Source of the DNA: Pedobacter faecalis
GTDB taxonomy: Bacteria; Bacteroidota; Bacteroidia; Sphingobacteriales; Sphingobacteriaceae
Assembly (NCBI RefSeq): GCF_030182585.1
Contig: NZ_JARXOW010000001.1
Coordinates: 372,001-436,000, forward strand
DNA length: 64,000 bases
Reading direction: 5' to 3'
This document shows, piece by piece, positions 42,564 through 54,846 of this stretch. The notes beneath the pieces are model-generated. The model was not told the DNA's origin. It did no database searches and saw only the letters and a program-made list of their open reading frames with translations. A program made the translations under genes and the position numbers. The stretch's first letter is position 1; each line of letters starts with the position of its first letter.

Positions 42564-45500
42564 TTAAAATGTTGCAGACAAATTGAAGGACAGTGTCCTG
42601 GCGAACGGATATTGTGTTCCGCGTTCTAAACCTATGGTAGAGAATGTGGCCAGTTCGTTCATGTTAAATCCTACTTTCAGGCGCTCAATACCCATGCGTT
42701 TCGAAAACTGGTTGTCGAACAGGTAGTAAAGATTTACAGCAGAAATGGTGATCTCGTTGCGGTCTTGTACAAAGCGGGTGGTCGACCGTGTAAGTTCACG
42801 TGCGCTGGTAGTGCTTGTTCCGTCAGCCGTTGGTATGCTGTAAGTGCCAAGACGCTTATAAAGCGCGTTTTGTCCGGGTACCGACCATCTGCCGGTCAGC
42901 ACCCGGCGGTCTACATTGTAGTCCATAACAACGTTCTCAACGCGGTCTACCAAAGTCTGGTTGTAAAGCTGGCCACCGCCGAGGTAACGCGCAACGACAT
43001 TTAGTCCAATTCCCTTGTATTCTCCGGAAAAGCCCATGGTTCCCTGATATTCCGGGTTCGATTGTCCGGCTACGATCTGGTCGGCCGCGTCCCATTCATA
43101 TGTCGTACTGCCGTTCTTTTTTAAGTATATCTCCCGGCCTGTTGCTGGATCGATTCCAAGTGAAGGAACTGCCCAGATGGCGTTCATAGACAGGCCATCC
43201 TCATAACGCTTAACCGGTACGCTATTTCCTCTGTCGGCCGCAATTTTGTCCATCCGCTCATTGAAGGATCTCATGGCACTAGAAAGGCTGATAATTTTGT
43301 TCTTGTTGGTCTCCAAACCGAAATTGAGGTTAAGGAAGTTATTGCCGCGGCTAAGCAGCGTGTATGACGTATAAAGTTCTATACCACTGTTCTTAACCTT
43401 TCCAAGGTTTTCCTTTACCACGTTAAAGCCTGTGGAGTTTGGTCGGGTGATGTCGGCAATAAGGTTCTCGGTAAATGCTTGATAGTAATCAAAACGCACA
43501 TTCAGGCCACCTACGGTAATATCCGCACCGGCATTATAGTCGAACTTACTCTCCCATTGAAGGTCTACATTGGAGAGGTTTGCTAAATATGATCCCGGAA
43601 AGCCTTGATAGTAGGCATTTTGGTAATATTTGTAAGTTGAAACGGATGAATTGGTTGGGAAGTTTGAATTTCCTGTTGATCCAAGCGATCCGCGTACCTT
43701 GAACAATTTAAACACGTCCATGTTTTTAAGAAAAGCTTCGTTATGCAAGTTCCATCCCAGTCCAAGGCTCCAGAAATTTGCCCATCTTTTGTTTGAGCCA
43801 AATTGTGAAGATGCGTTCGTGCGGAAAGTAAAGTCAGACAGGAAGCGGTTATCGTACATATAGGAAAAGGACCCTAGAAAACCAAGTTCCCTGCGAACCG
43901 AATTAAGACCAGTAGGTGTAGATTCAAAGCGATAGTTACGGCCAAATGTAATGTCGTCGAGCCTGTCGTTCGGGAACCCTTCCACAAAGTGAACAACCTC
44001 CATAGAGTTTCTTTCACTGACGTTAAAACCAGCATTACCAAACAGGAAATGCTTATTGATTTCTTTGGAATAGGTCAGGTTGAAGTCGCCCGACAAATAT
44101 TGCTGCTTGCCGGTGTTGGCCTGATAAGATCCTTTTCTCAGTATATCATCGCCAAAGTAGTTTTCAAATCTTGTATGTGCCGCTGGATAAAACTCGTCAG
44201 CATTGCTGTTTTGGACATCAATCCCCAAACGGGTTGTTGCCCGCAGCCCGGGTATCATGGTCCACTCCAGATAGAAATTATTAATAAAGTTGAAATAATC
44301 TGTGCTGTTTTTTGAGTTTATTGTCGAGTTGTACAGCGGGTTAACGAACTGAGTACCGTTTGACGAGACCTCGGCATAATAGGGAATAGTGCCGTCGGCA
44401 TTTTCTGCACGCCAGTAGGGATTCATTTGAGCATATTCGCTGAATGTTCCGTAAGGCGATTCAATGGCTCTGTTGTCGATGGCAGACATGATATTGCGGA
44501 AAAGGAGGTTTTTCACACGGTAGGAGGTGCTGATATTTCCGGAAATGTTTTCACGGTTAGAACCAATCATGGCCCCGGTAACGTCACGATAGGCTACATC
44601 GGCTATAATGTTCAGACTTGGTCCGCCCAGCTCTACAGAAAGCGCATGTTTATGACCTACACCACTTTGCAGCGGCTTGGCAAGCCAATAGGTGTCAAGC
44701 CCTTCCAATACCTGCTTCCTTCTGAAGTTGTACAACTGCTGGCCGGCTACATGCGTTTCGGGAGAACTCGAACCAAGCGGTACATAGTAGCCGTCGATAC
44801 GCTCTGCTTCCAGTTTTTCCGTCGAATTGGTGAGGTTATAGCTTGTAAGATCGGGCAGTTCGAGGTCTAAGCTGCTGTTGTACGATACACGCGCTCTTCC
44901 AGCCGTCAGTTTCTTTGTTTCAATAACGATGACGCCGTTGGCCGCCTTGGCACCATACAGGGCTTTTGAAGCAGCATCTTTCAAAATGGTGACACTCTCA
45001 ATGCGGTTCATGTCTAAATCAAAAATCCGCTCCGCAGTACTTTCAAAGCCATCCAGTATAAACAGAGGCTCATTGGGGTTTTTGATATAGTTTCCTTTCA
45101 GGTTTCCAGTCACCTCATCTGACGCAAGGGGGAAGGTAGAAGTTCCCCTTAGTTGTATGTCGGGAAGTGCATTCGGATTGGATCCGTTGGTGAAGTTATC
45201 AAGCACCATGGAAGGCGAGATATTCTTTAGCGCTTGAAAGAAGTTGGCATTACCCACTTTTTTCAGGTCTTCACCTTTAATAACGAGTGTTGAACCGGTA
45301 AAGCTCTCTGCTTTACGTGTATAAATACCTGTATTGATCACTACTTCCTTCAAGCCAATGGTGCTTTGCCTGAGGATAACATTAATGGTTTGATTTGCGG
45401 GGCGGCCAGCAAAATCAAATGGGATTTCCCTGGTGATATAGCCCAGCATGGAAACACTGAGCGATCCCGCGGCGTTCCTGGATTCGATCCGGTAATTCCC

Positions 45501-45983
45501 ACTGCCATCAGTTGTCGCAAAAGTTGTCCCGGCCAGGCTTATGGTAACGCCAGGTATGGAGGCGCCGGTGGTATCGGTCACCTTACCCTGAATCACATAG
45601 GATTGCTGCGTTACATCAGCGTTTCGCCTTTTAGTTAGGGCAATGTTGTTGTTGATGATTTGGAATGAGATACCGGTTCCTGTAAAGCACTTGGTAAGCA
45701 CTTCATCGATAGTGGCGTTTTTAACCTGGATCGAGATACGCTGATCCTGCAATTGATTTTCATTGTAAAGGAACACATATCCTGATTGCTTTTCGATAGA
45801 TTCAATGATACTGGGCAAGGATGCATTCCTTTTATTCAGTGTGATTTGGCTGTATCCACGTGCTGCGACGTGCAGAAACGATACCATCACTATCAGGACT
45901 GTTAGCTTCATAGCCAGAAAAAGTTTGTTGACCGGCCGTTTTCCGCGCATGCGGTGGCCGTTAGTAATCGTACTAAAATTCAT
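42564..45983 (-). CDS. SusC-type TonB-dependent transporter with STN signalling domain, system 1
   Basis: About 1139 residues from the ATG at 45983. This start is supported by alignment with the second SusC gene: both begin in a GTAATGAA context. An ATG at 46034 would add 17 residues. After a signal segment (LFLAMKLTVLIVMVSFLHVAARGYSQ) comes a secretin-type STN domain (about 45-115, LPSIIESIEKQSGYVFLYNENQLQD) used to signal to the FecR/sigma pair upstream. Then come a carboxypeptidase-like domain (VIQGKVTDTTGASIPGVTISLAG), the plug (NPNALPDIQLRG, DPLFIL-like NEPLFILDGFES, ILKDAASKALYGAKAANGVIVIETKK) and the barrel. The barrel, with the SusD lid, imports a nutrient of unknown kind. Confidence 0.93.
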   Translation of the reverse strand: MNFSTITNGHRMRGKRPVNKLFLAMKLTVLIVMVSFLHVAARGYSQITLNKRNASLPSIIESIEKQSGYVFLYNENQLQDQRISIQVKNATIDEVLTKCFTGTGISFQIINNNIALTKRRNADVTQQSYVIQGKVTDTTGASIPGVTISLAGTTFATTDGSGNYRIESRNAAGSLSVSMLGYITREIPFDFAGRPANQTINVILRQSTIGLKEVVINTGIYTRKAESFTGSTLVIKGEDLKKVGNANFFQALKNISPSMVLDNFTNGSNPNALPDIQLRGTSTFPLASDEVTGNLKGNYIKNPNEPLFILDGFESTAERIFDLDMNRIESVTILKDAASKALYGAKAANGVIVIETKKLTAGRARVSYNSSLDLELPDLTSYNLTNSTEKLEAERIDGYYVPLGSSSPETHVAGQQLYNFRRKQVLEGLDTYWLAKPLQSGVGHKHALSVELGGPSLNIIADVAYRDVTGAMIGSNRENISGNISTSYRVKNLLFRNIMSAIDNRAIESPYGTFSEYAQMNPYWRAENADGTIPYYAEVSSNGTQFVNPLYNSTINSKNSTDYFNFINNFYLEWTMIPGLRATTRLGIDVQNSNADEFYPAAHTRFENYFGDDILRKGSYQANTGKQQYLSGDFNLTYSKEINKHFLFGNAGFNVSERNSMEVVHFVEGFPNDRLDDITFGRNYRFESTPTGLNSVRRELGFLGSFSYMYDNRFLSDFTFRTNASSQFGSNKRWANFWSLGLGWNLHNEAFLKNMDVFKLFKVRGSLGSTGNSNFPTNSSVSTYKYYQNAYYQGFPGSYLANLSNVDLQWESKFDYNAGADITVGGLNVRFDYYQAFTENLIADITRPNSTGFNVVKENLGKVKNSGIELYTSYTLLSRGNNFLNLNFGLETNKNKIISLSSAMRSFNERMDKIAADRGNSVPVKRYEDGLSMNAIWAVPSLGIDPATGREIYLKKNGSTTYEWDAADQIVAGQSNPEYQGTMGFSGEYKGIGLNVVARYLGGGQLYNQTLVDRVENVVMDYNVDRRVLTGRWSVPGQNALYKRLGTYSIPTADGTSTTSARELTRSTTRFVQDRNEITISAVNLYYLFDNQFSKRMGIERLKVGFNMNELATFSTIGLERGTQYPFARTLSFNLSATF

Positions 45984-46023
45984 TACATTTGTTTGTTGGG
46001 TTAAACTGAAGAATCGGATTTTT

Positions 46024-46141
46024 TTCCGGAGCATATGCCGGAAAGGTTAACTCAATAATTTGCACGGGAGTGTTGGCGCACTTCCGTGTACTATTTTATA
46101 ACCTTCTTGCCTTAGCGTTGCTGTCGTAAATGTCTTTTCAT
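46024..46141 (-). promoter_or_regulatory. Structured leader of susC system 1 (short ORF plus nested hairpins)
   Basis: Between fecR and susC on the minus strand, in order: a 9-codon ORF (46141 to 46112, MKRHLRQQR); AAGGTTA (complement of 46099-46105), which can pair with TAACCTT (complement of 46043-46049); inside it a hairpin, CACGGAAGTG / CACTCCCGTG around six bases (46063-46088, one mismatch); and, abutting the closing arm, a hairpin TTTCCGG / CCGGAAA (46023-46044). The same order and spacing recur before the second susC (51182-51314). Function is unknown; conservation of shape with different sequence suggests an RNA element. Confidence 0.55.
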
Positions 46142-46177
46142 GTGTGGTTGTTTAGTGTGTTCGGTTTGTTGATTATT

Positions 46178-47308
46178 TTATTGTAGTTCAGATTCGATGA
46201 AGACAGTGTTGCCTTTTACTTTGTATTTAACGCCGAGAAAACCTATGGTTTTGAGGGCTTGCTGCAGCGTGAGTGTTTTCGGTATTTTTCCGGTGAAAGA
46301 TACTTCCGGGATGGTTCGCTGGTATCTGAATTCGACGTTATACCAGCGTGACATCGGGCGCAGTACTGTCTCTAGGTCGGCCCGTTTAAAGCTGAAAAGC
46401 CCGTTTTTCCAGGCAATCGCCTGGTCGGTGTTTACATTTTTTACATCAAGCAGAACACCGTTGTTGGTATATGACTGCTGACCTGGCTTAAGAATTTGGG
46501 TAAACCTATCGCCGTAAACTCTGATACTTCCTTCAACAAGTGTGGTAAGCGTTCCGTGCTCATTGGCATAGCAGTTTATATTAAAGTGCGTACCAAGAAC
46601 TTCAATTTCCTGACTGCCAGTTTGAACTATGAAAGGCATTACGGGATCTTTTTCCACTTCGAAGTAGCCTTCACCTTTTAGCGTAACTAAACGCTTTTCC
46701 CCGCCTTTGAAACTTACCGGGTAGGTGAGTGAGGAACCCGAATTAAGCCATACCAAGGTTCCGTCTGGAAGTGTGACACGAAACTGTCCGCCTGTGGGCA
46801 CCTCTATGGTATTGGAGACGTTGTTATGCTCGCTGGTATTTGCCTGACTGTAGGTGATCTGCCCGTCGCGTGTTTTATAGATGGTGATGCCCGCCAGTAC
46901 ACTAAGGGTACCATTGGTTTCATCACTTAAGTCTATCCTTTTTCCGTTGCCAAGGATCAGAACAGCTTTGTTGCCGCCCGGCGCCACATCTTCTAATTTC
47001 TCGGTTGCATTTGCGGCAAGTTTTTTCACGGGACTGTCAGTTTGCATATGGTAAAGAAATATTCCCGCAACCAGCAGCAACACAGCGGCAGCAGCATAGG
47101 GTGCCCAGTTTAACCGCCTTGTGCGTGGTCGTATGGTTTCGAGCAACTTAACGCGTGCGATGCGTTGGTCCGCAATAATTTGAACTGGATCTGGCAGGTC
47201 GCCCTTGGACGACTCCATGTACCAGCGCTCCACAAGTGCTTTTTCCTGCTCAGTGGCCTGTCCGTTATGATATCTGTCAAGAAGGTCTTTTGCGTTGGTG
47301 GTTCCCAT
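46178..47308 (-). CDS. FecR-type anti-sigma factor, system 1
   Basis: A 376-residue inner-membrane protein: an N-terminal cytoplasmic sigma-binding part (about 1-75, LLDRYHNGQATEQEKALVERWYMES), one transmembrane helix (about 76-98, WAPYAAAAVLLLVAGIFLY), then the periplasmic FecR domain (TIEVPTGGQFRVTLPDGTLVWLNSGSSLTYPVSFKG, RLVTLKGEGYFEVEKDP, FIVQTGSQEIEVLGTHFNINCYANE) and the C-terminal DUF4974 / STN-like part (FKRADLETVLRPMSRWYNVEFRY, TLQQALKTIGF) that contacts the SusC STN domain. It relays occupancy of the transporter to the sigma factor. It lies 53 bases after the sigma gene. Confidence 0.94.
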   Translation of the reverse strand: MGTTNAKDLLDRYHNGQATEQEKALVERWYMESSKGDLPDPVQIIADQRIARVKLLETIRPRTRRLNWAPYAAAAVLLLVAGIFLYHMQTDSPVKKLAANATEKLEDVAPGGNKAVLILGNGKRIDLSDETNGTLSVLAGITIYKTRDGQITYSQANTSEHNNVSNTIEVPTGGQFRVTLPDGTLVWLNSGSSLTYPVSFKGGEKRLVTLKGEGYFEVEKDPVMPFIVQTGSQEIEVLGTHFNINCYANEHGTLTTLVEGSIRVYGDRFTQILKPGQQSYTNNGVLLDVKNVNTDQAIAWKNGLFSFKRADLETVLRPMSRWYNVEFRYQRTIPEVSFTGKIPKTLTLQQALKTIGFLGVKYKVKGNTVFIESELQ

Positions 47309-47361
47309 AAAAGTTTGTTAGGCTTATACAGATAAGTACCCTAACCAAGGCCTATGGGGTA

Positions 47362-47928
47362 TTACAAAAGAAAAAAAATATTTGCCCCTAGTTTTGACCG
47401 CAGGATTCTGAGTGCGTTACGTACTTGGGTACGCACTGTTTGGGGACTAATATTCAATCTTTCGGCGATCTCTTTGTGGCTTAATTCGTCCGTTCTGCTT
47501 AACTCGAATATGATGCGCATTTGCGGTGGCAAGGCGGCGATTTCGGCCTCAATGAGCAGGAGAAGCTCTTTCTCTCTAATTTTTTCGTAGGTGGTATTGG
47601 CACCCTGATCTATAAAGACCTGCAAAGAATTGATATAGTCGGTTCTAACCTTGTTGTGTCGGTAAAGTTTTAGCAGACTCTTTCGCACAGCCCCATACAG
47701 GTAAACCTGTAAATTAACTGATATGGAGAGCGTTTCGCGATTGTTCCAGAGCGCAACGAATATCTCCTGGAGCAAATCAAGAATTTCTTCCCTGTGAGGA
47801 AATCGTTTATATGCATGAATGTACAGTGCTGCATAGTAACGGGAGTGGATTTCCGTAAGCGCAGTGGTATTGTCCAGGCTTAGCTCCCGGATTAACTCTA
47901 AATCAGAATACGCACTATAATCTTCCAT
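47362..47928 (-). CDS. ECF sigma factor (RpoE-like), system 1
   Basis: About 188 residues from the ATG at 47928, preceded by GGGGG; the frame extends 29 codons upstream through sequence that is not sigma-like. Region 2: LIRELSLDNTTALTEIHSRYYAALYIHAYKRFPHREEILDLLQEIFVALWNNRETL. Region 4: LIEAEIAALPPQMRIIFELSRTDELSHKEIAERLNISPQTVRTQVRNALRILRSKLG, a helix-turn-helix. It should direct RNA polymerase to the susC operon when FecR releases it. Only 144 bases separate it from the SDR gene on the same strand; I see no clear housekeeping promoter there. Confidence 0.93.
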   Translation of the reverse strand: MEDYSAYSDLELIRELSLDNTTALTEIHSRYYAALYIHAYKRFPHREEILDLLQEIFVALWNNRETLSISVNLQVYLYGAVRKSLLKLYRHNKVRTDYINSLQVFIDQGANTTYEKIREKELLLLIEAEIAALPPQMRIIFELSRTDELSHKEIAERLNISPQTVRTQVRNALRILRSKLGANIFFLL

Positions 47929-48072
47929 ACCCCCGGGGAAGCAGTTACTTGTTACCGTCGCACTAAAGTTAGCTTTTTTGTGAGATATTGTCCGGCAATT
48001 TGAACTTTTATGCACTTTTTTTTGCAGGAAGCCGGCTCAAGTAACTGCTATTTCCCGTTATGGGGTTAAAAT

Positions 48073-48813
48073 TTACTTCAATCCATAGGTTAAATAACCT
48101 CCATCAGCAACAATTTCCGTTCCTGTGATAAAACTCGCGGCATCAGAAGCCAGAAACAGTACGGTGCTGGCGATTTCTTCTGGGCGACCTAAACGCTGAA
48201 GGGCAGTTGCAGCAGCGAGGTATGATTTAGCTTCTGAGGCAACTGATTCTAGCCCTGGTGTAAGTACTGGTCCGGGACTTACAATGTTTACCCTTATTTT
48301 GCGGTCGACCAATTCATTCGCTGCAATCTGTGCGATCTTATTAAGCGCACCTTTGGTAGAGGAGTATACGCTCGTACCCACGTTAGTAGCCGTTGCAACC
48401 GTAGAAGAAGTGAAGATAACAGATGCACCATCTGCAAGATGTGGCATTAGCTTTTGAAGTGTAAAATAGTGACCCTTCACATTAGTGTTAAACTGCGCAT
48501 CGAAGTCGGCTTCCGTGGTTTGCGCAATAGGTGTAAACACAGCAATACCCGCATTGAGGAACAGCACGTCCAGGTTCTGTCGGCTTTCAGCAAAAGTTTT
48601 TTCCAGGAGGTCGATATCCGGCATTTTTGACGTATCTGCCACGAGTGTGTGCAGGTTCGGACTATTGATCTCTGCACGTGCCTTGTCTAGGTTCGCTTCA
48701 TTTCTGCCGGTAATCCATACGTTAGCGCCGGCACCTATGAAGGCATGTGCGGTCGCCAGGCCGATACCTGTGGTACCTCCGGTTATAATCAAATTTTTTC
48801 CTGTAAAGTCCAT
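48073..48813 (-). CDS. Short-chain dehydrogenase/reductase (SDR)
   Basis: A 246-residue NAD(P)-dependent oxidoreductase of the classical SDR type: glycine motif TGGTTGIG (11-18), NAG at 87-89, the catalytic serine in FTSSTVA (about 136-137), Y150-x3-K154 (VYSSTKGAL), and the end FLASDAASFITGTEIVADGGYLTYG. R37 after the second strand (ITGRNEAN) suggests NADPH. The substrate is not readable. It is divergent from an HxlR-type regulator gene; six GTAAC copies lie in the shared 113-base gap, the typical arrangement for an aldehyde/quinone- or stress-inducible reductase controlled by its neighbour. Length is standard. Confidence 0.9.
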   Translation of the reverse strand: MDFTGKNLIITGGTTGIGLATAHAFIGAGANVWITGRNEANLDKARAEINSPNLHTLVADTSKMPDIDLLEKTFAESRQNLDVLFLNAGIAVFTPIAQTTEADFDAQFNTNVKGHYFTLQKLMPHLADGASVIFTSSTVATATNVGTSVYSSTKGALNKIAQIAANELVDRKIRVNIVSPGPVLTPGLESVASEAKSYLAAATALQRLGRPEEIASTVLFLASDAASFITGTEIVADGGYLTYGLK

Positions 48814-48876
48814 TGTAAAGTGTTTAAAAGTGTTTAATAATTATGATGCAAAACTAGTGTGAGTAAATTAATTATG

Positions 48877-48924
48877 GTAACTTTGTAACCAAAAGTAACA
48901 GTAACATTTGAGTAACCAGGTAAC
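48877..48924. promoter_or_regulatory. Cluster of six GTAAC copies, candidate HxlR operator, with two -7 boxes
   Basis: GTAAC begins at 48877, 48885, 48895, 48901, 48912 and 48920, all on the plus strand. TAACTTTG (48878-48885) is a -7 box for the HxlR gene; TACTTTTG on the minus strand (complement of 48890-48897) is one for the SDR gene. Both lie inside the cluster, so a protein bound to the repeats would block both promoters. Copies 17-19 bases apart could be read by a dimer on one face. Binding by HxlR is inference. Confidence 0.6.
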
Positions 48925-48926
48925 TT

Positions 48927-49271
48927 ATGACAGAAAATATTTGCCACAAACCAGAGATTATGGCCGTTCACGACGCCATGGACGTGCTTAACGGAAAATG
49001 GAAGGTTTCCATAGTTTCGTCGATCTGCTATTATAACAAAAGAAGGTTTTCGGATATCCTGAATGATGTAGAGGGTATATCCAATAAAATGCTAAGCAAA
49101 GAACTGAAGGAACTTGAAATGAACAAGCTGATTAACCGTACGGTTCATAATACGCAGCCCGTTACTGTTGAGTATAGCCTGACGGAATATGGCAGAACCC
49201 TGCAGTCTATTATCGACGACCTGGCCAGGTGGGGAAAACAGCACCGAAAGGTGATTACTGGGAAGGGGTAG
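48927..49271 (+). CDS. HxlR-family transcriptional regulator
   Basis: A 114-residue winged-helix protein of HxlR type: MDVLNGKWKVSIVSSICYYNKRRFSDILNDVEGISNKMLSKELKELEMNKLINRTVHNTQPVTVEYSLTEYGRTLQSIIDDLARWGKQH, matching the family from end to end. C6 and C34 could serve as thiol sensors, as in some relatives that sense quinones or aldehydes. It is divergent from the SDR gene and likely represses or activates it through the intergenic GTAAC cluster. It is followed by the second ECF sigma gene, 75 bases on. Confidence 0.92.
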   Translation: MTENICHKPEIMAVHDAMDVLNGKWKVSIVSSICYYNKRRFSDILNDVEGISNKMLSKELKELEMNKLINRTVHNTQPVTVEYSLTEYGRTLQSIIDDLARWGKQHRKVITGKG

Positions 49272-49346
49272 TTTCATGTTCAAGCTCTCGGCTTTGCATA
49301 CAGATTACTGTTTGCTGGAAGCCGGAAATACAGTACATTGGCACCA

Positions 49347-49913
49347 ATGCAGCACTGGGATCAAGCAACCGACGAAGAATTGATCGTTTTACTCGCTCAG
49401 GAGGATAAACAGGCCTTCGGGGAAATTTACCGCAGGTATAAGGCTGCGTTGATATTACACGCCTTTAAGAAACTGGGCGACTTTGAGCAGGCTAAGGATG
49501 TGGTGCAGGAAGTTTTTTCGACGTTGTGGCATAATCGCATTTCGCTGAGTGCGGTCAACAGTTTGCCCGCCTATTTGTATGTCCTGGTGCAGCGCCGGGT
49601 CTTAAACGTGGTAAAACACCATGCTGTGGCCAATCGGTACCTGGCCTCGTTTAATGAGTATCTGGCCGAAAACCCGCATACTCCTGACCAGGTTTTCAGG
49701 GAAAAGGAACTCGCTGCACTGATAGACAAGGAGATAGCCAGTCTGCCCGACAGAATGAGAGAGGTCTTGATACTTAGCCGAAAGGAGCATCTAAAGCACC
49801 GGGAGATTGCCGAGCGTCTCGGTATATCTGAGTTTACGGTTAAGAATCATATGAAGGCAGCTTTAAAGGTGCTTCGCAGAAACCTCGGAAACGCACTCTT
49901 CTTATTTTGCTGA
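49347..49913 (+). CDS. ECF sigma factor (RpoE-like), system 2
   Basis: About 188 residues from the ATG at 49347 (a TTG at 49338 is the only upstream alternative). Region 2: LIVLLAQEDKQAFGEIYRRYKAALILHAFKKLGDFEQAKDVVQEVFSTLWHNR. Region 4: LIDKEIASLPDRMREVLILSRKEHLKHREIAERLGISEFTVKNHMKAALKVLRRNLG. It has the same layout as the system 1 sigma but is clearly diverged, so the two systems probably recognise different promoters. Stop TGA is followed at once by a run of ten T, which might aid pausing. FecR follows after 86 bases. Confidence 0.93.
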   Translation: MQHWDQATDEELIVLLAQEDKQAFGEIYRRYKAALILHAFKKLGDFEQAKDVVQEVFSTLWHNRISLSAVNSLPAYLYVLVQRRVLNVVKHHAVANRYLASFNEYLAENPHTPDQVFREKELAALIDKEIASLPDRMREVLILSRKEHLKHREIAERLGISEFTVKNHMKAALKVLRRNLGNALFLFC

Positions 49914-49999
49914 TTTTTTTTTTAATCTTACTAGCCCTGTTTGTTTTCCTGGTTGTCTTATCTCTAAAACATCATCATTAGAGATCAGGACTACGGGAT

Positions 50000-51151
50000 A
50001 TGGATAAACAAGGGTTTGAAAAACTAATAGACCGCTTTTTGGATGGCGAGGCGACTGAGGCCGAGCAGGCGCTTTTACAGTCCTGGTATCATGGTCTTGA
50101 AATAGCAGATGCTGAGGGGCTTTCTGACAAGCAATTGCTCGACATTCTGGCACTGAAGCATGAATATATGATGGATGAACCGCAGAGTTTCCGGCTCTCT
50201 TATCGCTGGATAGCTGTAGCTGCGTTGTTACTGATGGTGCTTTCTGTGGGCATTTACACTTTGATTTTAAATCCTGGTGGAGGCTCCGCAGAACCGGTGC
50301 GGTCAGCGATCACAATCCCACCCGGCGGTAATAAAGCTATTCTAACGCTGGCGGATGGTAGCCGGGTATTGCTCGGTACCACTGCCGGGTCTGGTAAAGT
50401 CAAAGAGCAGGGCGGGGTCAGACTTGTTGAGCAAGGGAATGGTAAGCTTGCTTACCTGATCGACGGAAACAGCGCTTCGTCTGACGGTGAAAAACTGATG
50501 AACAACATCCGGACACCGCGTGGCGGACAATATCAAGTGACACTTTCTGATGGCACGCGGGTATGGCTAAATTCGGCCTCCTCGATTTCCTATCCCGCTG
50601 ATTTTCCTGCAGGCGAGCGCCGGGTTGAGATTAGCGGAGAGGTGTATATGGAAGTCGCCCACGATGAGACCAGGCCTTTCCGTGTGGTTTCTGGACAGCA
50701 AACCGTGGAAGTGTTGGGTACCATGTTTAATATAAATATATATCCTGACGAACCAGCTGTCCGGACTACACTGTTGGAAGGCAGCGTTCGCGTAATCCCC
50801 GGCTCTAATGTCTCCACTACTTCTATAGCTGTTTTAAAGCCGGGTCAGCAGTCCATCCTGGCTGGAGGAAGTGTAAAGATCGCTTCTGCCGATGTAGAAC
50901 CGGTTATTGCCTGGAAGAACGGGATATTTAAGTTCAATAAGACGAGTCTGCGTGAGGTAACCCGACAGCTTTCCCGCTGGTACGATGTGGATTTTACCTA
51001 TGCGGCCGGGATGAGTGACCGTAGTTTCTCCGGCGAACTTGCCCGAAATTCAAACATTTCTGAGATCCTTGACATGCTGAGTTTTCTTGATGTCAATTTT
51101 AAACTGACGCAGCAGGATGGCCGGAAGGTAATACATATTCAACAAAAATAA
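50000..51151 (+). CDS. FecR-type anti-sigma factor, system 2
   Basis: A 383-residue protein with the same order as the system 1 FecR: sigma-binding N-terminus (FEKLIDRFLDGEATEAEQALLQSWYHGLE), a transmembrane helix at about 70-90 (WIAVAALLLMVLSVGIYTLIL), periplasmic FecR domain (TPRGGQYQVTLSDGTRVWLNSASSISYPADFPAGERRVEISGEVYMEVAHDETRPFRVV, VEVLGTMFNINIY) and C-terminal DUF4974 part (FNKTSLREVTRQLSRWYDVDF, ISEILDMLSFLDVNF). It transmits the signal from the SusC STN domain to the sigma factor. A 182-base structured leader separates it from susC. Confidence 0.94.
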   Translation: MDKQGFEKLIDRFLDGEATEAEQALLQSWYHGLEIADAEGLSDKQLLDILALKHEYMMDEPQSFRLSYRWIAVAALLLMVLSVGIYTLILNPGGGSAEPVRSAITIPPGGNKAILTLADGSRVLLGTTAGSGKVKEQGGVRLVEQGNGKLAYLIDGNSASSDGEKLMNNIRTPRGGQYQVTLSDGTRVWLNSASSISYPADFPAGERRVEISGEVYMEVAHDETRPFRVVSGQQTVEVLGTMFNINIYPDEPAVRTTLLEGSVRVIPGSNVSTTSIAVLKPGQQSILAGGSVKIASADVEPVIAWKNGIFKFNKTSLREVTRQLSRWYDVDFTYAAGMSDRSFSGELARNSNISEILDMLSFLDVNFKLTQQDGRKVIHIQQK

Positions 51152-51181
51152 ACTGAACCAAAAACCAACAAACCCAACACG

Positions 51182-51314
51182 ATGAAAAAATGGCTGCCAT
51201 GATGTAAACGAAGGTTTCCCGGAATAAAAAATGCAGGAGTGTGACAGCACCCCTGCGTTAAGCTGGCTTAACCTTGCCTGAGGGCAAACGATGAAAAGTG
51301 ATTCAATCAATTAA
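51182..51314 (+). promoter_or_regulatory. Structured leader of susC system 2 (short ORFs plus nested hairpins)
   Basis: In order: a 6-codon ORF (51182-51202, MKKWLP); AAGGTT (51211-51216), which can pair with AACCTT (51270-51275); inside it a hairpin GCAGGAGTG / CACCCCTGC around TGACAG (51233-51256, one mismatch); a local GTTAAGC / GCTTAAC hairpin (51257-51272) that would compete with the closing pair; a hairpin TTGCC / GGCAA (51274-51287); and a second short ORF (51291-51314, MKSDSIN). It parallels the system 1 leader at 46024-46141. Function unknown. Confidence 0.55.
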
Positions 51315-51333
51315 ACCAAACTGTACAAAAGTA

Positions 51334-54300
51334 ATGAAATTCAATTCTATTGCTGTGCCGGAGGCATGGCATTTAAAAAAAATCCTAATGGTTTTAAAAC
51401 TAACCACATGTATACTATTTATTGCTTTGCTCCAGGTAAGTGCTGCCGGCTATGGACAGGTGAGCCTGAATGAAAGCAATGTGCCTCTTGAAAAGGTACT
51501 GAAGCTGATTAACAAGCAAACGGGGTATCATTTTTTTTATGATTCGGAAGACCTGGACAAAAAGGTCGTCTCTGTGAATGTAAAAAATGTGACTGTTGAG
51601 ACAGCTCTGAAGACCTGCCTGGATAACTTGCCGCTCACTTATAAGATTGTTGGACGCAATATTGTTCTAAAGCAGTTGGAGCAATCTGTACCCATGTCTC
51701 CGGCAGTATCTAATGTTGCCACCCAGGTAACCGTGGGCGGGAAGGTGACCGACGAAACGGGCGGACCAATGTCGGGCGTAGGGATTATGAACAAGCGTTC
51801 AAAAAAGGTGGCCGTGACGGATAAGGATGGTTCCTATGCTATTGCGGCTGAACGTGCTGACGTACTGGTGTTTTCCTACATTGGGTATAAGACCACCGAT
51901 GTAACCGTTGGCAATTCTACGGTTTACAATGTAAAGCTTGAACCAGTTACTTCCGGTTTGGAGCAGGTGGTTGTGGTAGGGTACGGAACAGTGAAACGTA
52001 AAGATCTGACCGGGTCAGTAGCTTCTGTCAGCGTAGACGAGATCAAGGACATACCCTTCATGAGTGTAGACCAGGCGTTATCGGGTAAAGCAGCCGGTGT
52101 CCAGGTAGTGCAGGGCGACGGCTCACCGGGGGGTGTTGCCAGTATCAGGGTTCGCGGCGGAACTTCGATAATGGGCGGAAATGATCCGCTCTATATTATT
52201 GACGGCGTGCAGATTACACCTCAAAACAGATACATCAGTACTCCCGGCGAACTGGTAGATCCTGTTGCACGCGCATCGAGCGATTCTTCACCAGCGCTAG
52301 CCGGGGCTTTTGCCAGGGGATTGAATAGTCTGGCCGGTTTGAACATCAATGATATCGAAACTATCGATATATTAAAAGATGCTTCAGGTACGGCGATTTA
52401 TGGTTCGAAAGCGGCCAATGGGGTGGTAATCATCACCACTAAAAAAGGCAGGCGTGATCAGAAGCCGGTTGTAGAACTAAACAATTATACCGGCTTTTCT
52501 AATCCGATAAAAGCGGAGTTGCTGAATGCCGATGAATACCGGACGATCATGAAGGAAGCAGCGCAGAACTTGCTGAACGAACAGGCTGCGCTAGGGGAGC
52601 CCTTAAGTGCAAGGGCCAGTAGCATCGTTAATACGCCTGACTTTCTTGGTGCAGATAACACAGACTGGCTGGATCTGGTGTTGCGTACGGGTTTAACTCA
52701 AAATACCGACCTGTCGGTTCGCGGCGGCGGAAAGGCCTCTCGGTATTATACTTCATTATCGTACAGCAAGCAGAGCGGGGTAATTGAGGGGACAGACTTT
52801 TCGCGTCTTTCGGGTAAGGTGAACTTCGATAACGAGGTGACCAGCAAGTTTAAAGTGATCACCAATATCAACTATGGCTTTACCACCAACAATATTACCA
52901 ACGGCGCATACTCGCAGGCGCTTTATGCACCGCCTACACGGAGTCCTTATAATGCAGATGGTTCGCTGACAAACCTGAGTGCCGGGGCTATTGGAAGCGA
53001 TGCTTATCTAGGTTTGCAGAACCCATTGTTGTTGCTGAAGGGTATAAACCGAGGCAAGAACGCCATGTTCCTGGGCTCCCTTACGCTGGAATACGATATC
53101 CTTAAAAACCTGAAATTCCGTAGCCAGTCGTCTGTAAACTATAACAATTACCAGCAGCGAAACTTCACGCCATCGTCTACACTAGTCGCTTCGGGTAGTA
53201 CCAATGCAGTCGACTCTAAAGGAGGTGTAGGTTCATTGGGCCAGTCAGAAAACGTGAGTTATCTTTACGAAAACACCTTAAATTACAATACACAGTTTGC
53301 TGAGCATCGCTTAGATTTCGTGGCGGGTACTTCCTGGCAGTTGAGTAAGTCGTCCTCTTTCCAGGCATCGGGCCAGACCTTCCCGGATGACGTTGTACTG
53401 AACCACCTTGGTTCTGCGGCAGTAACCCTTCCGAACGTTTCGTCATTTGGTCAGAATTCACTCTTAAGTTTTTATGCAAGAGGTAACTATGCTTATCAGG
53501 ATAAATACTTGCTTACCGTTACAGCACGTTCTGATGCTTCTTCCAAATTTTCTAATACCAACCGGATCGGCTATTTTCCTTCTGCTGGTGTAGCCTGGCG
53601 GTTATCAGAGGAAAATTTCATGAAGGATATAAGTTGGATAGATGATATTAAACTGCGCGCCAGTGCCGGTTATACGGGTACGCAGAATATCGGCGATTAT
53701 TTGTACCGCACTCTGTATACTCCAGCCACCTATAATGGTGCAAATGCCGTTATACCCAGTCAGCTCGGCAATAATGCCATCAAGTGGGAGTCAACTTTAC
53801 AAAAGGATGCTGGAATTGACCTTTCATTGTTCGATTCAAGATTATCGGCAAGTATAGGTCTTTACGAGAAGAAGTCGTCGGGTCTGCTGTTTACCCTTCC
53901 GCTTGCACCAAGTTCTTCGTTCAGTAATTTAACGGCCAATCTGGCCGATATACGCAACCGCGGTTTGGAAATTGGTCTGCAAGGCGAGATTTTACGCGCT
54001 AAGTCTTTTACCTGGAGGAGTGATCTGAATGTGTCGTTCAACAGAAGTCTGGTTACCGGGCTTAATATGGACTATGCCGATCCTAAGCATGGAAGTGTAA
54101 ACAGCAACAACGGACAAAGTTATATCATGTCGAACACCGTGCTGCGAACCGGCATGGCAGTAGGGCAGTTTGTTGGTGCCCAGTACGCAGGCATTATCCA
54201 AAACACGGAGCAATTGGAGGCCTATAAAGCACAGCAGCCCTTTTATATGTTCTTTAATCCATACCTGAACATCGGCGATGCTATGTATCAGATCGGTAGC

Positions 54301-54846
54301 GGTCCGCTGGAAGGATTTGTGGATACCTACAGACTTATTGGAAGTGCCGCGCCTAAATTTTATGGGGGCTGGACGAACACGTTAATCTTCAGTAACTTTT
54401 CACTGGTGAGTCTGCTTAACTATTCTTACGGGGGCCAAATACTCTACCTGGCCGATATCCGTGACAATTTTATTTATGACATGGCCAACAAAGGAAGGGT
54501 GGTACTTGGCCGCTGGACGCCGGAAAACACGAATACCGATCGTCCGCGACTGGTATACGGGCAGAATTCTATCGGCACAACCAGCAGCAGTATTTACAGT
54601 TCGTCATACATCAAACTGAAATCGCTGACATTGAACTATCAGCTGCCACAAACCCTGCTCCAGCGCCTTAAGGTCGCCAACCTATCGGTGTATGTTTCAG
54701 GCACCAATCTGTTTACCATATCAAAATATCCTGGTCAGGACCCCGAGGTAAGCAACGATCCTTACAGCTTGGTTGATGGCTATACAGATTCCAACGCTTA
54801 TCCTACGATAAGACAGTATGTATTGGGTGCAAGGCTAAGTTTTTAA
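51334..54846 (+). CDS. SusC-type TonB-dependent transporter with STN signalling domain, system 2
   Basis: About 1170 residues from the ATG at 51334, whose GTAATGAA context matches the first SusC gene; the frame is open to 51298. Signal segment (ILMVLKLTTCILFIALLQVSAAGYGQ), STN domain (about 50-120: VPLEKVLKLINKQTGYHFFYDSEDL), carboxypeptidase-like domain (VTVGGKVTDETGGPMSGVGI), then the plug with hallmark SusC motifs (VVVGYGTVKRKDLTGSVASV, ASIRVRGGTSIMGGNDPLYIIDGVQI, IDILKDASGTAIYGSKAANGVVIITTKKG) and a barrel ending VLGARLSF. With SusD (next gene) it imports a nutrient; the TlpA-type partner hints at a redox-active or peptide-like substrate, but this is weak. Confidence 0.94.
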   Translation: MKFNSIAVPEAWHLKKILMVLKLTTCILFIALLQVSAAGYGQVSLNESNVPLEKVLKLINKQTGYHFFYDSEDLDKKVVSVNVKNVTVETALKTCLDNLPLTYKIVGRNIVLKQLEQSVPMSPAVSNVATQVTVGGKVTDETGGPMSGVGIMNKRSKKVAVTDKDGSYAIAAERADVLVFSYIGYKTTDVTVGNSTVYNVKLEPVTSGLEQVVVVGYGTVKRKDLTGSVASVSVDEIKDIPFMSVDQALSGKAAGVQVVQGDGSPGGVASIRVRGGTSIMGGNDPLYIIDGVQITPQNRYISTPGELVDPVARASSDSSPALAGAFARGLNSLAGLNINDIETIDILKDASGTAIYGSKAANGVVIITTKKGRRDQKPVVELNNYTGFSNPIKAELLNADEYRTIMKEAAQNLLNEQAALGEPLSARASSIVNTPDFLGADNTDWLDLVLRTGLTQNTDLSVRGGGKASRYYTSLSYSKQSGVIEGTDFSRLSGKVNFDNEVTSKFKVITNINYGFTTNNITNGAYSQALYAPPTRSPYNADGSLTNLSAGAIGSDAYLGLQNPLLLLKGINRGKNAMFLGSLTLEYDILKNLKFRSQSSVNYNNYQQRNFTPSSTLVASGSTNAVDSKGGVGSLGQSENVSYLYENTLNYNTQFAEHRLDFVAGTSWQLSKSSSFQASGQTFPDDVVLNHLGSAAVTLPNVSSFGQNSLLSFYARGNYAYQDKYLLTVTARSDASSKFSNTNRIGYFPSAGVAWRLSEENFMKDISWIDDIKLRASAGYTGTQNIGDYLYRTLYTPATYNGANAVIPSQLGNNAIKWESTLQKDAGIDLSLFDSRLSASIGLYEKKSSGLLFTLPLAPSSSFSNLTANLADIRNRGLEIGLQGEILRAKSFTWRSDLNVSFNRSLVTGLNMDYADPKHGSVNSNNGQSYIMSNTVLRTGMAVGQFVGAQYAGIIQNTEQLEAYKAQQPFYMFFNPYLNIGDAMYQIGSGPLEGFVDTYRLIGSAAPKFYGGWTNTLIFSNFSLVSLLNYSYGGQILYLADIRDNFIYDMANKGRVVLGRWTPENTNTDRPRLVYGQNSIGTTSSSIYSSSYIKLKSLTLNYQLPQTLLQRLKVANLSVYVSGTNLFTISKYPGQDPEVSNDPYSLVDGYTDSNAYPTIRQYVLGARLSF

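Follow-up and report, generated by a model that had tools for sequence, protein, structure and literature searches.

Two fecR-susC gaps were analysed in a stretch of 64,000 nucleotides (nt) of Pedobacter faecalis (assembly GCF_030182585.1, contig NZ_JARXOW010000001.1, positions 372,001 to 436,000 of the forward strand). The whole stretch is called the window here and its own numbering is used. Each of the two susC leaders very probably carries a gene for a predicted cis-antisense RNA of about 100 nt which lies opposite susC and resembles the DonS RNAs of Bacteroides. The sigma-A-type -7 box of this gene would overlap or abut the susC start codon. Antisense transcription would go back over the translation-initiation region and the leader of susC and end at a terminator hairpin, and the RNA is predicted to fold into a closed 5' domain (a helix, P1, around inner hairpins) and the terminator. 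A sequence-only reading of this DNA had suggested that the leaders may be a conserved structured RNA acting in cis in extracytoplasmic function (ECF)/FecR-type SusCD operons. All elements named there were found: in leader 1 the short open reading frame (ORF) at 46141-46112, the AAGGTT/AACCTT arms and the hairpin at 46090-46061 (minus strand), and in leader 2 the short ORF at 51182-51202, the arms, the hairpin at 51230-51259 (plus strand) and the GTTAAGC/GCTTAAC pair. The structure and the short ORFs were upheld while the cis-acting sense riboregulator was not; the structure is real and was probably read on the wrong strand.

Both leaders are members of a large family of fecR-susC gaps and not an isolated pair. 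The genome of P. faecalis (3.63 Mb) gave 32 FecR matches and the layout recurs many times in the 32 downstream gaps. Leaders were collected from genomes of the genus, family and phylum and from named genomes, which gave 247 loci; 30 loci and 80 further ones were taken from among the FecR matches listed. Removal of 8 near-duplicates left 239 loci, and the 232 whose gap reached 60 nt were retained for the leader counts, while 19 short-gap loci (less than 60 nt after fecR) were counted separately. Eight loci were dropped for having no long downstream ORF (L047, L097, L108, L167, L170, L197, L218 and L255), the own-genome repeats L037, L048 and L062 were excluded when the relatives were read, and L280-L299 are outside all counts. 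The downstream ORF was assumed to be susC at each locus; that of L142 does not look like susC, some of the kept starts are wrong (L003, L027) and the start positions of L006, L016, L022 and L052 were set by hand.

The hairpin is present far above chance: 95 of 117 leaders contain one that scores at least 18, compared with 30 of 585 dinucleotide-shuffled leaders. Its strand is indicated by the type of pairing. The stems of 143 terminators, written as sense strand, contain 141 A.C plus C.A oppositions and 11 G.U pairs. A strand-neutral finder, which scores A.C and G.U alike, returned 113 A.C versus 12 G.U in 103 hairpins of the 117 leaders, and 146 versus 77 in 166 hairpins of the 585 shuffled leaders. 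As an A.C opposition in the sense strand corresponds to G.U in the complementary RNA, the pairing of the hairpin points to the antisense strand. The antisense fold was stronger by a mean of 3.9 kcal/mol over the 95 hairpins (0.9 in shuffles), and at a difference of more than 0.5 kcal/mol 80 of them favoured antisense and 8 sense. The tail is also on this side: a hairpin of score at least 18 with at least 5 A in the preceding 9 nt, an antisense U-tail, was found in 143 of 232 leaders, and one with at least 5 T after it, a sense U-tail, in 9 of 232. When 7 kb around the leaders were scanned independently for terminators, 10 candidates resulted against 7.7 (standard deviation 2.8) in shuffles, a number which is no excess by itself; the leader hairpins, each opposite its susC, head this list and have more G-C pairs than the rest. 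On this sequence evidence, the leader hairpin is probably an intrinsic terminator of the strand opposite susC.

Compensatory changes in the hairpin stems, which the sequence-only reading had named as a check, were observed across 12 groups of orthologous leaders. Pairing was kept with both sides changed in 14 pairs, 73 pairs were invariant and 36 were unclassed; in this comparison the L005, L075 and L141 groups aligned poorly and near-duplicates were kept. The sense stems of the same groups showed 55 A.C versus 3 G.U cells. The end of the hairpin is situated at a median of 74 nt from the susC start (quartiles 69-92, 5-95% range 58-123), and by arithmetic from this distance the predicted RNAs of the class would be about 80-145 nt long.

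The other end of the predicted gene lies at the start of susC. The start context GTAATGAA, noted earlier as common to both leaders, does recur, and it doubles as a predicted promoter box of the antisense strand. It includes CAAANNTA, the reverse complement of TAnnTTTG, which in Bacteroidota is the -7 box used by the primary sigma factor (PMC7366714, PMC9723704). Exact CAAANNTA was present at 143 of 232 susC starts versus 2 of 78 fecR starts, at 1 of 72 short-ORF starts despite the similar A-rich context there, and at 1 of the 19 susC starts with a short gap. In the first 117 leaders it occupied mainly the registers -7 (38) and -3 (29). Terminator and box (at most one mismatch) co-occur at 131 loci.

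Both predicted antisense RNAs fold alike. In each, P1 is formed by the 5' end and a box immediately ahead of the terminator; in the predicted fold it encloses inner hairpins, among them the further hairpins of the sequence-only reading. The box, of loose sense consensus YTGRGTTAACC, was found by expectation maximisation with a log-likelihood of 134 versus 28-41 in shuffles. In 72 of 129 leaders the box scored best 4-8 nt behind the hairpin; it is degenerate, with exact TTAACC at most 30 nt from the hairpin in only 12 of 143. In the window it lies at 46055-46045 (minus strand) and 51263-51273 (plus strand), the 3' side of antisense P1. The closing arm AACCTT of the sequence-only reading is on the sense side of this box, whose partner in the predicted antisense RNA is the 5' end. 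Comparison of within-locus and cross-locus pairing (n=129) gave for P1 a mean gain of 1.87 kcal/mol on the antisense strand (P 3.6e-7) and 0.18 kcal/mol on the sense strand (P 0.80), with P 3e-7 for the paired difference between strands. The body of the RNA without the terminator had a z of -1.55 in antisense versus -0.72 in sense (P 5e-5, first 60 of the 129). The sense-leader riboregulator does not agree with these features, as the hairpin mismatches are A.C and its tail is an A-tract on the sense strand and P1 is locus-specific on the antisense strand only.

Pairing of the arms around the hairpin is likewise better within a locus than across loci (P 2e-5 for sense, P 0.006 for antisense), and flank pairing in a more distant control window was slightly below expectation. 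The pairing of the arms was thereby sustained for the class, and their letters were not: AAGGTT/AACCTT was rejected as a fixed motif, since of 143 leaders only 2 carry AAGGTT in the last 60 nt ahead of the hairpin and only 4 carry AACCTT behind it. The YTGRGTTAACC box may have a sense role, for example as part of an ECF promoter. A two-part sense promoter of ECF type beside it was considered and rejected, no second conserved block being found in the 70 of 129 leaders that have a good box.

In the window, the genes and predicted features of the two loci are as follows.

42564..46034, minus strand: susC 1, longest ORF, SusC by Pfam
46178..47308, minus strand: fecR 1, anti-sigma gene, by Pfam
47362-48015, minus strand: ECF sigma 1, by Pfam
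49338-49913, plus strand: ECF sigma 2, by Pfam
50000..51151, plus strand: fecR 2, anti-sigma gene, by Pfam
51334..54846, plus strand: susC 2, by ORF and Pfam
45984..45991, plus strand: predicted -7 promoter box of antisense RNA 1 (TACATTTG), exact TAnnTTTG with class enrichment
45996..46098, plus strand: predicted cis-antisense RNA 1, about 103 nt, antisense to the minus-strand susC leader, from box spacing and terminator
45998..46053, plus strand: 5' domain of antisense RNA 1 by predicted fold, P1 being 45998-46004 with 46047-46053
46061..46090, plus strand: intrinsic terminator hairpin of antisense RNA 1 by terminator scan, followed by CTATTTTATA
46112..46141, minus strand: short ORF 1, MKRHLRQQR, stop 21 nt before the hairpin
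51182..51202, plus strand: short ORF 2, MKKWLP, stop 27 nt before the hairpin
51224..51321, minus strand: predicted cis-antisense RNA 2, about 98 nt, antisense to the plus-strand susC leader, from box, terminator, model match and fold
51233..51256, minus strand: intrinsic terminator hairpin of antisense RNA 2 by terminator scan, followed by ATTTTTTATT
51263..51319, minus strand: 5' domain of antisense RNA 2 by predicted fold, P1 being 51319-51310 with 51272-51263 around inner hairpins
51326..51333, minus strand: predicted -7 promoter box of antisense RNA 2 (TACTTTTG), exact TAnnTTTG

Pfam confirmed that FecR and SusC genes flank both leaders, as proposed earlier, and ECF sigma and SusD genes adjoin. 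The 5' ends of the predicted RNAs were placed by the flavobacterial consensus spacing from box to start. At the first locus, TACATTTG directly adjoins the susC 1 start context and is reverse-complementary to it, and the ATG at 45983 suits the context of the family better than that at 46034. The inner hairpins of antisense RNA 1 lie inside P1, with P2 predicted at 46021-46046. Its terminator hairpin is the GTG-N6-CAC hairpin of the sequence-only reading viewed from the opposite strand, folding at -19.2 kcal/mol in antisense versus -12.0 in sense.

A covariance model was built from 48 terminators of other genomes (48 of 64 eligible sequences, a few hairpins being misplaced in the source alignment). 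In the P. faecalis genome, with 150 of 454 first-look candidates scored, it gave 17 matches at E<=10. Fifteen of them are in fecR-susC gaps and all 15, both window leaders included, lie opposite susC. Leader 1 was the best match (C1:418045-418097 plus, window 46045-46097, E 3e-6), and leader 2 matched at C1:423223-423273 minus (window 51223-51273, E 0.0065). The other two (L278:2295-2344, L279:2323-2374) each lie at the 3' end of an ORF on their own strand, 698 and 435 amino acids long, and are probably ordinary terminators of the same shape. Rfam gave no match in the window at the gathering cut-off, and at E<=5 four window matches with none overlapping either leader.

The predicted gene recurs in Pedobacter and its relatives. 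Among the 28 long gaps of the own genome, box (at most one mismatch) plus terminator was present in 20, the terminator in 21 and the box in 25. At 78 named loci both were found in Pedobacter (28 of 50), Mucilaginibacter (6/10), Chitinophaga (4/4), Flavobacterium (3/3), Parapedobacter (1/1), Paraflavitalea (1/1), Lacibacter (1/2) and unclassified metagenome-assembled genomes (3/4), and were absent from the single loci of Dyadobacter, Solitalea and Pseudoflavitalea. Further loci of other families showed box and terminator in some cases and not in others. One Pedobacter genome (G012) has 123 FecR_C matches and could hold dozens of such units.

The short ORF is likewise real and belongs to the sense transcript, as a feature distinct from the antisense gene. 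The 143 terminator leaders were split at 60 nt between fecR stop and hairpin into 76 longer and 67 shorter ones. In 55 of the 76 longer leaders an ORF of 4-11 codons begins with ATG 40-70 nt ahead of the hairpin (mean 9.8, maximum 20 in 200 dinucleotide-shuffle sets), in keeping with the earlier claim, and ORFs of 8 or 9 codons occur in 33 (shuffles mean 2.3, maximum 7). Their length and position are maintained and their residues vary, as in MKRHLRQQR, MKRHLRQRS, MKKDLRKLP and MKRLYKNDP, and the start context is A-rich. The shorter leaders contain scattered ATGs and, by eye, no recurrent short ORF. From short-ORF stop to hairpin the median distance is 27.5 nt (quartiles 22.75-33, 72 leaders), and in the shorter leaders from fecR stop to hairpin 31 nt (26-37), this class being limited to 60 nt by definition. 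In both classes, therefore, a stop codon tends to sit about 30 nt before the terminator. Leu CTA makes up 39% of 46 Leu codons in the short ORFs (8% in neighbouring genes, 20% in the first susC codons) and Arg CGA 29% of 52 Arg codons (8% and 10%, respectively). An in-frame YTA CGA CAG (Leu-Arg-Gln) was seen at codons 5-7 in the short ORFs of L016, L032, L025, L057, L229 and L247, with codons that neighbouring genes seldom use. YTACRA as a promoter element was rejected; it occurs in 16 of 68 short ORFs (shuffles 2.3) and in 7 of 67 leaders without a short ORF (shuffles 4.8).

Some observations weigh against the antisense interpretation. The 30-nt stretch of leader 2 at 51230-51259 folds equally on both strands (-16.0 and -15.9 kcal/mol), the enclosing arms have no strand preference (P 0.2), and all P values count related loci as independent. 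Exact box and called terminator are not always found together: among the 239 loci, 40 possess only the exact box, another 40 only the terminator, and both are lacking in 56, the terminator finder being crude. The one-mismatch box is less telling than the exact one, being found at 205 of 232 susC starts, 20 of 78 fecR starts and 3 of the 19 short-gap susC starts. It also occurs at 32 of 72 short-ORF starts, and the -33 box (TTTG) gave no clear peak over 143 aligned sites; the -33 box is likewise described as unidentifiable in F. johnsoniae (PMC7366714). These last two points, with the A-rich initiation regions of these leaders, would suit the idea that CAAANNTA is mere translation-initiation context and that the terminators stop unrelated antisense noise. 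We consider this very unlikely, since the exact box is nearly confined to susC among the starts compared and the distance from hairpin to susC start is fairly tight. Still less credible is a bidirectional terminator which ends fecIR transcription and insulates susC. The hairpin is indeed located between fecR and susC and the two model matches outside such gaps sit at ORF ends, but the sense T-tract is rare, sense folding is weaker, and insulation leaves the promoter box at the susC start and P1 unexplained.

A structured sense leader, with leader peptide and alternative hairpins controlling susC by attenuation or at translation, accounts for the real short ORFs, the above-chance sense pairing of the arms and the alternative pairings possible in leader 2. 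It is nevertheless improbable, as the pairing of hairpin and P1, the type of wobble and the tail all indicate antisense, a sense-side T-tract is rare and the 67 leaders with the hairpin at most 60 nt from the fecR stop show, by eye, no recurrent short ORF. Because the arms show no strand preference, a sense-strand regulatory structure may coexist with the antisense gene, on top of it. In the antisense interpretation, transcription from the predicted promoter would stop at the hairpin and transcription from fecR to susC would read through, because the U-tract, and usually the better pairing too, is only on the antisense strand.

The predicted RNAs are probably of the same kind as DonS, to which they are likened by anatomy. 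The DonS family consists of cis-antisense RNAs of 78-128 nt opposite susC homologues, which lower their expression (PMC7366714), and their mechanism is given as unknown (PMC11697453). DonS and other antisense RNAs of polysaccharide utilization loci (PULs) in B. fragilis and B. thetaiotaomicron go back to Cao et al. 2016 (via PMC7366714, PMC10994844, PMC11697453). In B. thetaiotaomicron 32 PUL antisense RNAs are annotated, with both anti-correlation and positive correlation with their PULs (PMC10994844), and a canonical sigma-ABfr promoter is reported at 52% of the cis-antisense RNA candidates (PMC7366714). Similarly, the Pedobacter candidates are encoded in PULs opposite the 5' part of a susC homologue, many per genome, have in the window predicted lengths of about 103 and 98 nt, within the DonS range, and possess their own predicted TAnnTTTG -7 promoter, exact in both window leaders, and an intrinsic terminator. 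They differ in occurring in Pedobacter and its relatives, in a -7 box fused to the susC start, in a common layout of P1, inner hairpin and G.U-containing terminator, and in the conserved ORF of 8-9 codons beside many of them. What is new is the companion short ORF together with the common two-domain structure. Among the literature matches listed, in which subscription journals are little covered, none dealt with PUL antisense RNAs in Pedobacter or with a companion short ORF. Predicted equivalents of the PUL antisense RNAs of gut Bacteroides extend to Pedobacter, Mucilaginibacter, Chitinophaga and Flavobacterium, and this set supplies a common structure, a promoter position and a companion ORF that are open to testing. 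It is also a clean case of structure read on the wrong strand, where recurrent A.C 'mismatches' betray G.U pairs opposite.

By analogy with DonS, the predicted RNAs would pair with the susC mRNA leader or collide with its transcription and so keep SusC and SusD synthesis down; they probably damp importer production. Against this, repression is borrowed from Bacteroides, where positive correlations also occur. The ORF of 8-9 codons would place a ribosome about 30 nt or less from the hairpin; where the hairpin closely follows fecR, the fecR stop would have this effect. The recurrent stop position and the codon use suggest selection for a ribosome at this place. Possible purposes are accessibility of the leader to the antisense RNA, protection from Rho or a peptide signal. 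More tentatively, and with doubt prevailing, short ORF and antisense RNA could form one genome-wide regulatory device, in which a ribosome that finishes the short ORF (sometimes across rare CTA/CGA codons) or fecR about 30 nt ahead of the hairpin would gate pairing of the antisense RNA with the nascent susC leader. If true, it would be a chromosomal analogue of plasmid antisense/leader-ORF switches, tying importer synthesis to the state of translation. In the CopA/CopT system of plasmid R1 with tap, an antisense RNA and a leader ORF control replication. In both cases one mRNA leader combines a structured antisense RNA with a very short ORF; the present ORF differs in lying outside the antisense region, upstream of the 3' end of the RNA, the genes are unrelated and the coupling is putative. 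Candidate leader-peptide short ORFs are also predicted in long 5' untranslated regions of B. thetaiotaomicron (PMC7366714). Those too are short ORFs within mRNA leaders of Bacteroidota; they are predicted candidates, whereas the present ones are found again and again, at a fixed spacing, in dozens of fecR-susC gaps.

Annotated susC starts may be wrong because the first ATG overlaps the antisense promoter box. In many SusC proteins behind antisense units, about 20-25 residues come first and a further in-frame ATG (MKLT...) follows at the signal peptide; the relevant start sites in the window are 46034-45983 (minus strand) and 51334 (plus strand). By eye, own-genome SusC proteins encoded directly after fecR (L007, L013) seem to be without this N-terminal extension. 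A common second complementary pair, GCAG...CTGC-like, was also noticed by eye shortly before the susC start in the own-genome leaders L002, L008, L012, L015, L018, L021 and L030, and perhaps represents inner stems of the antisense RNAs.

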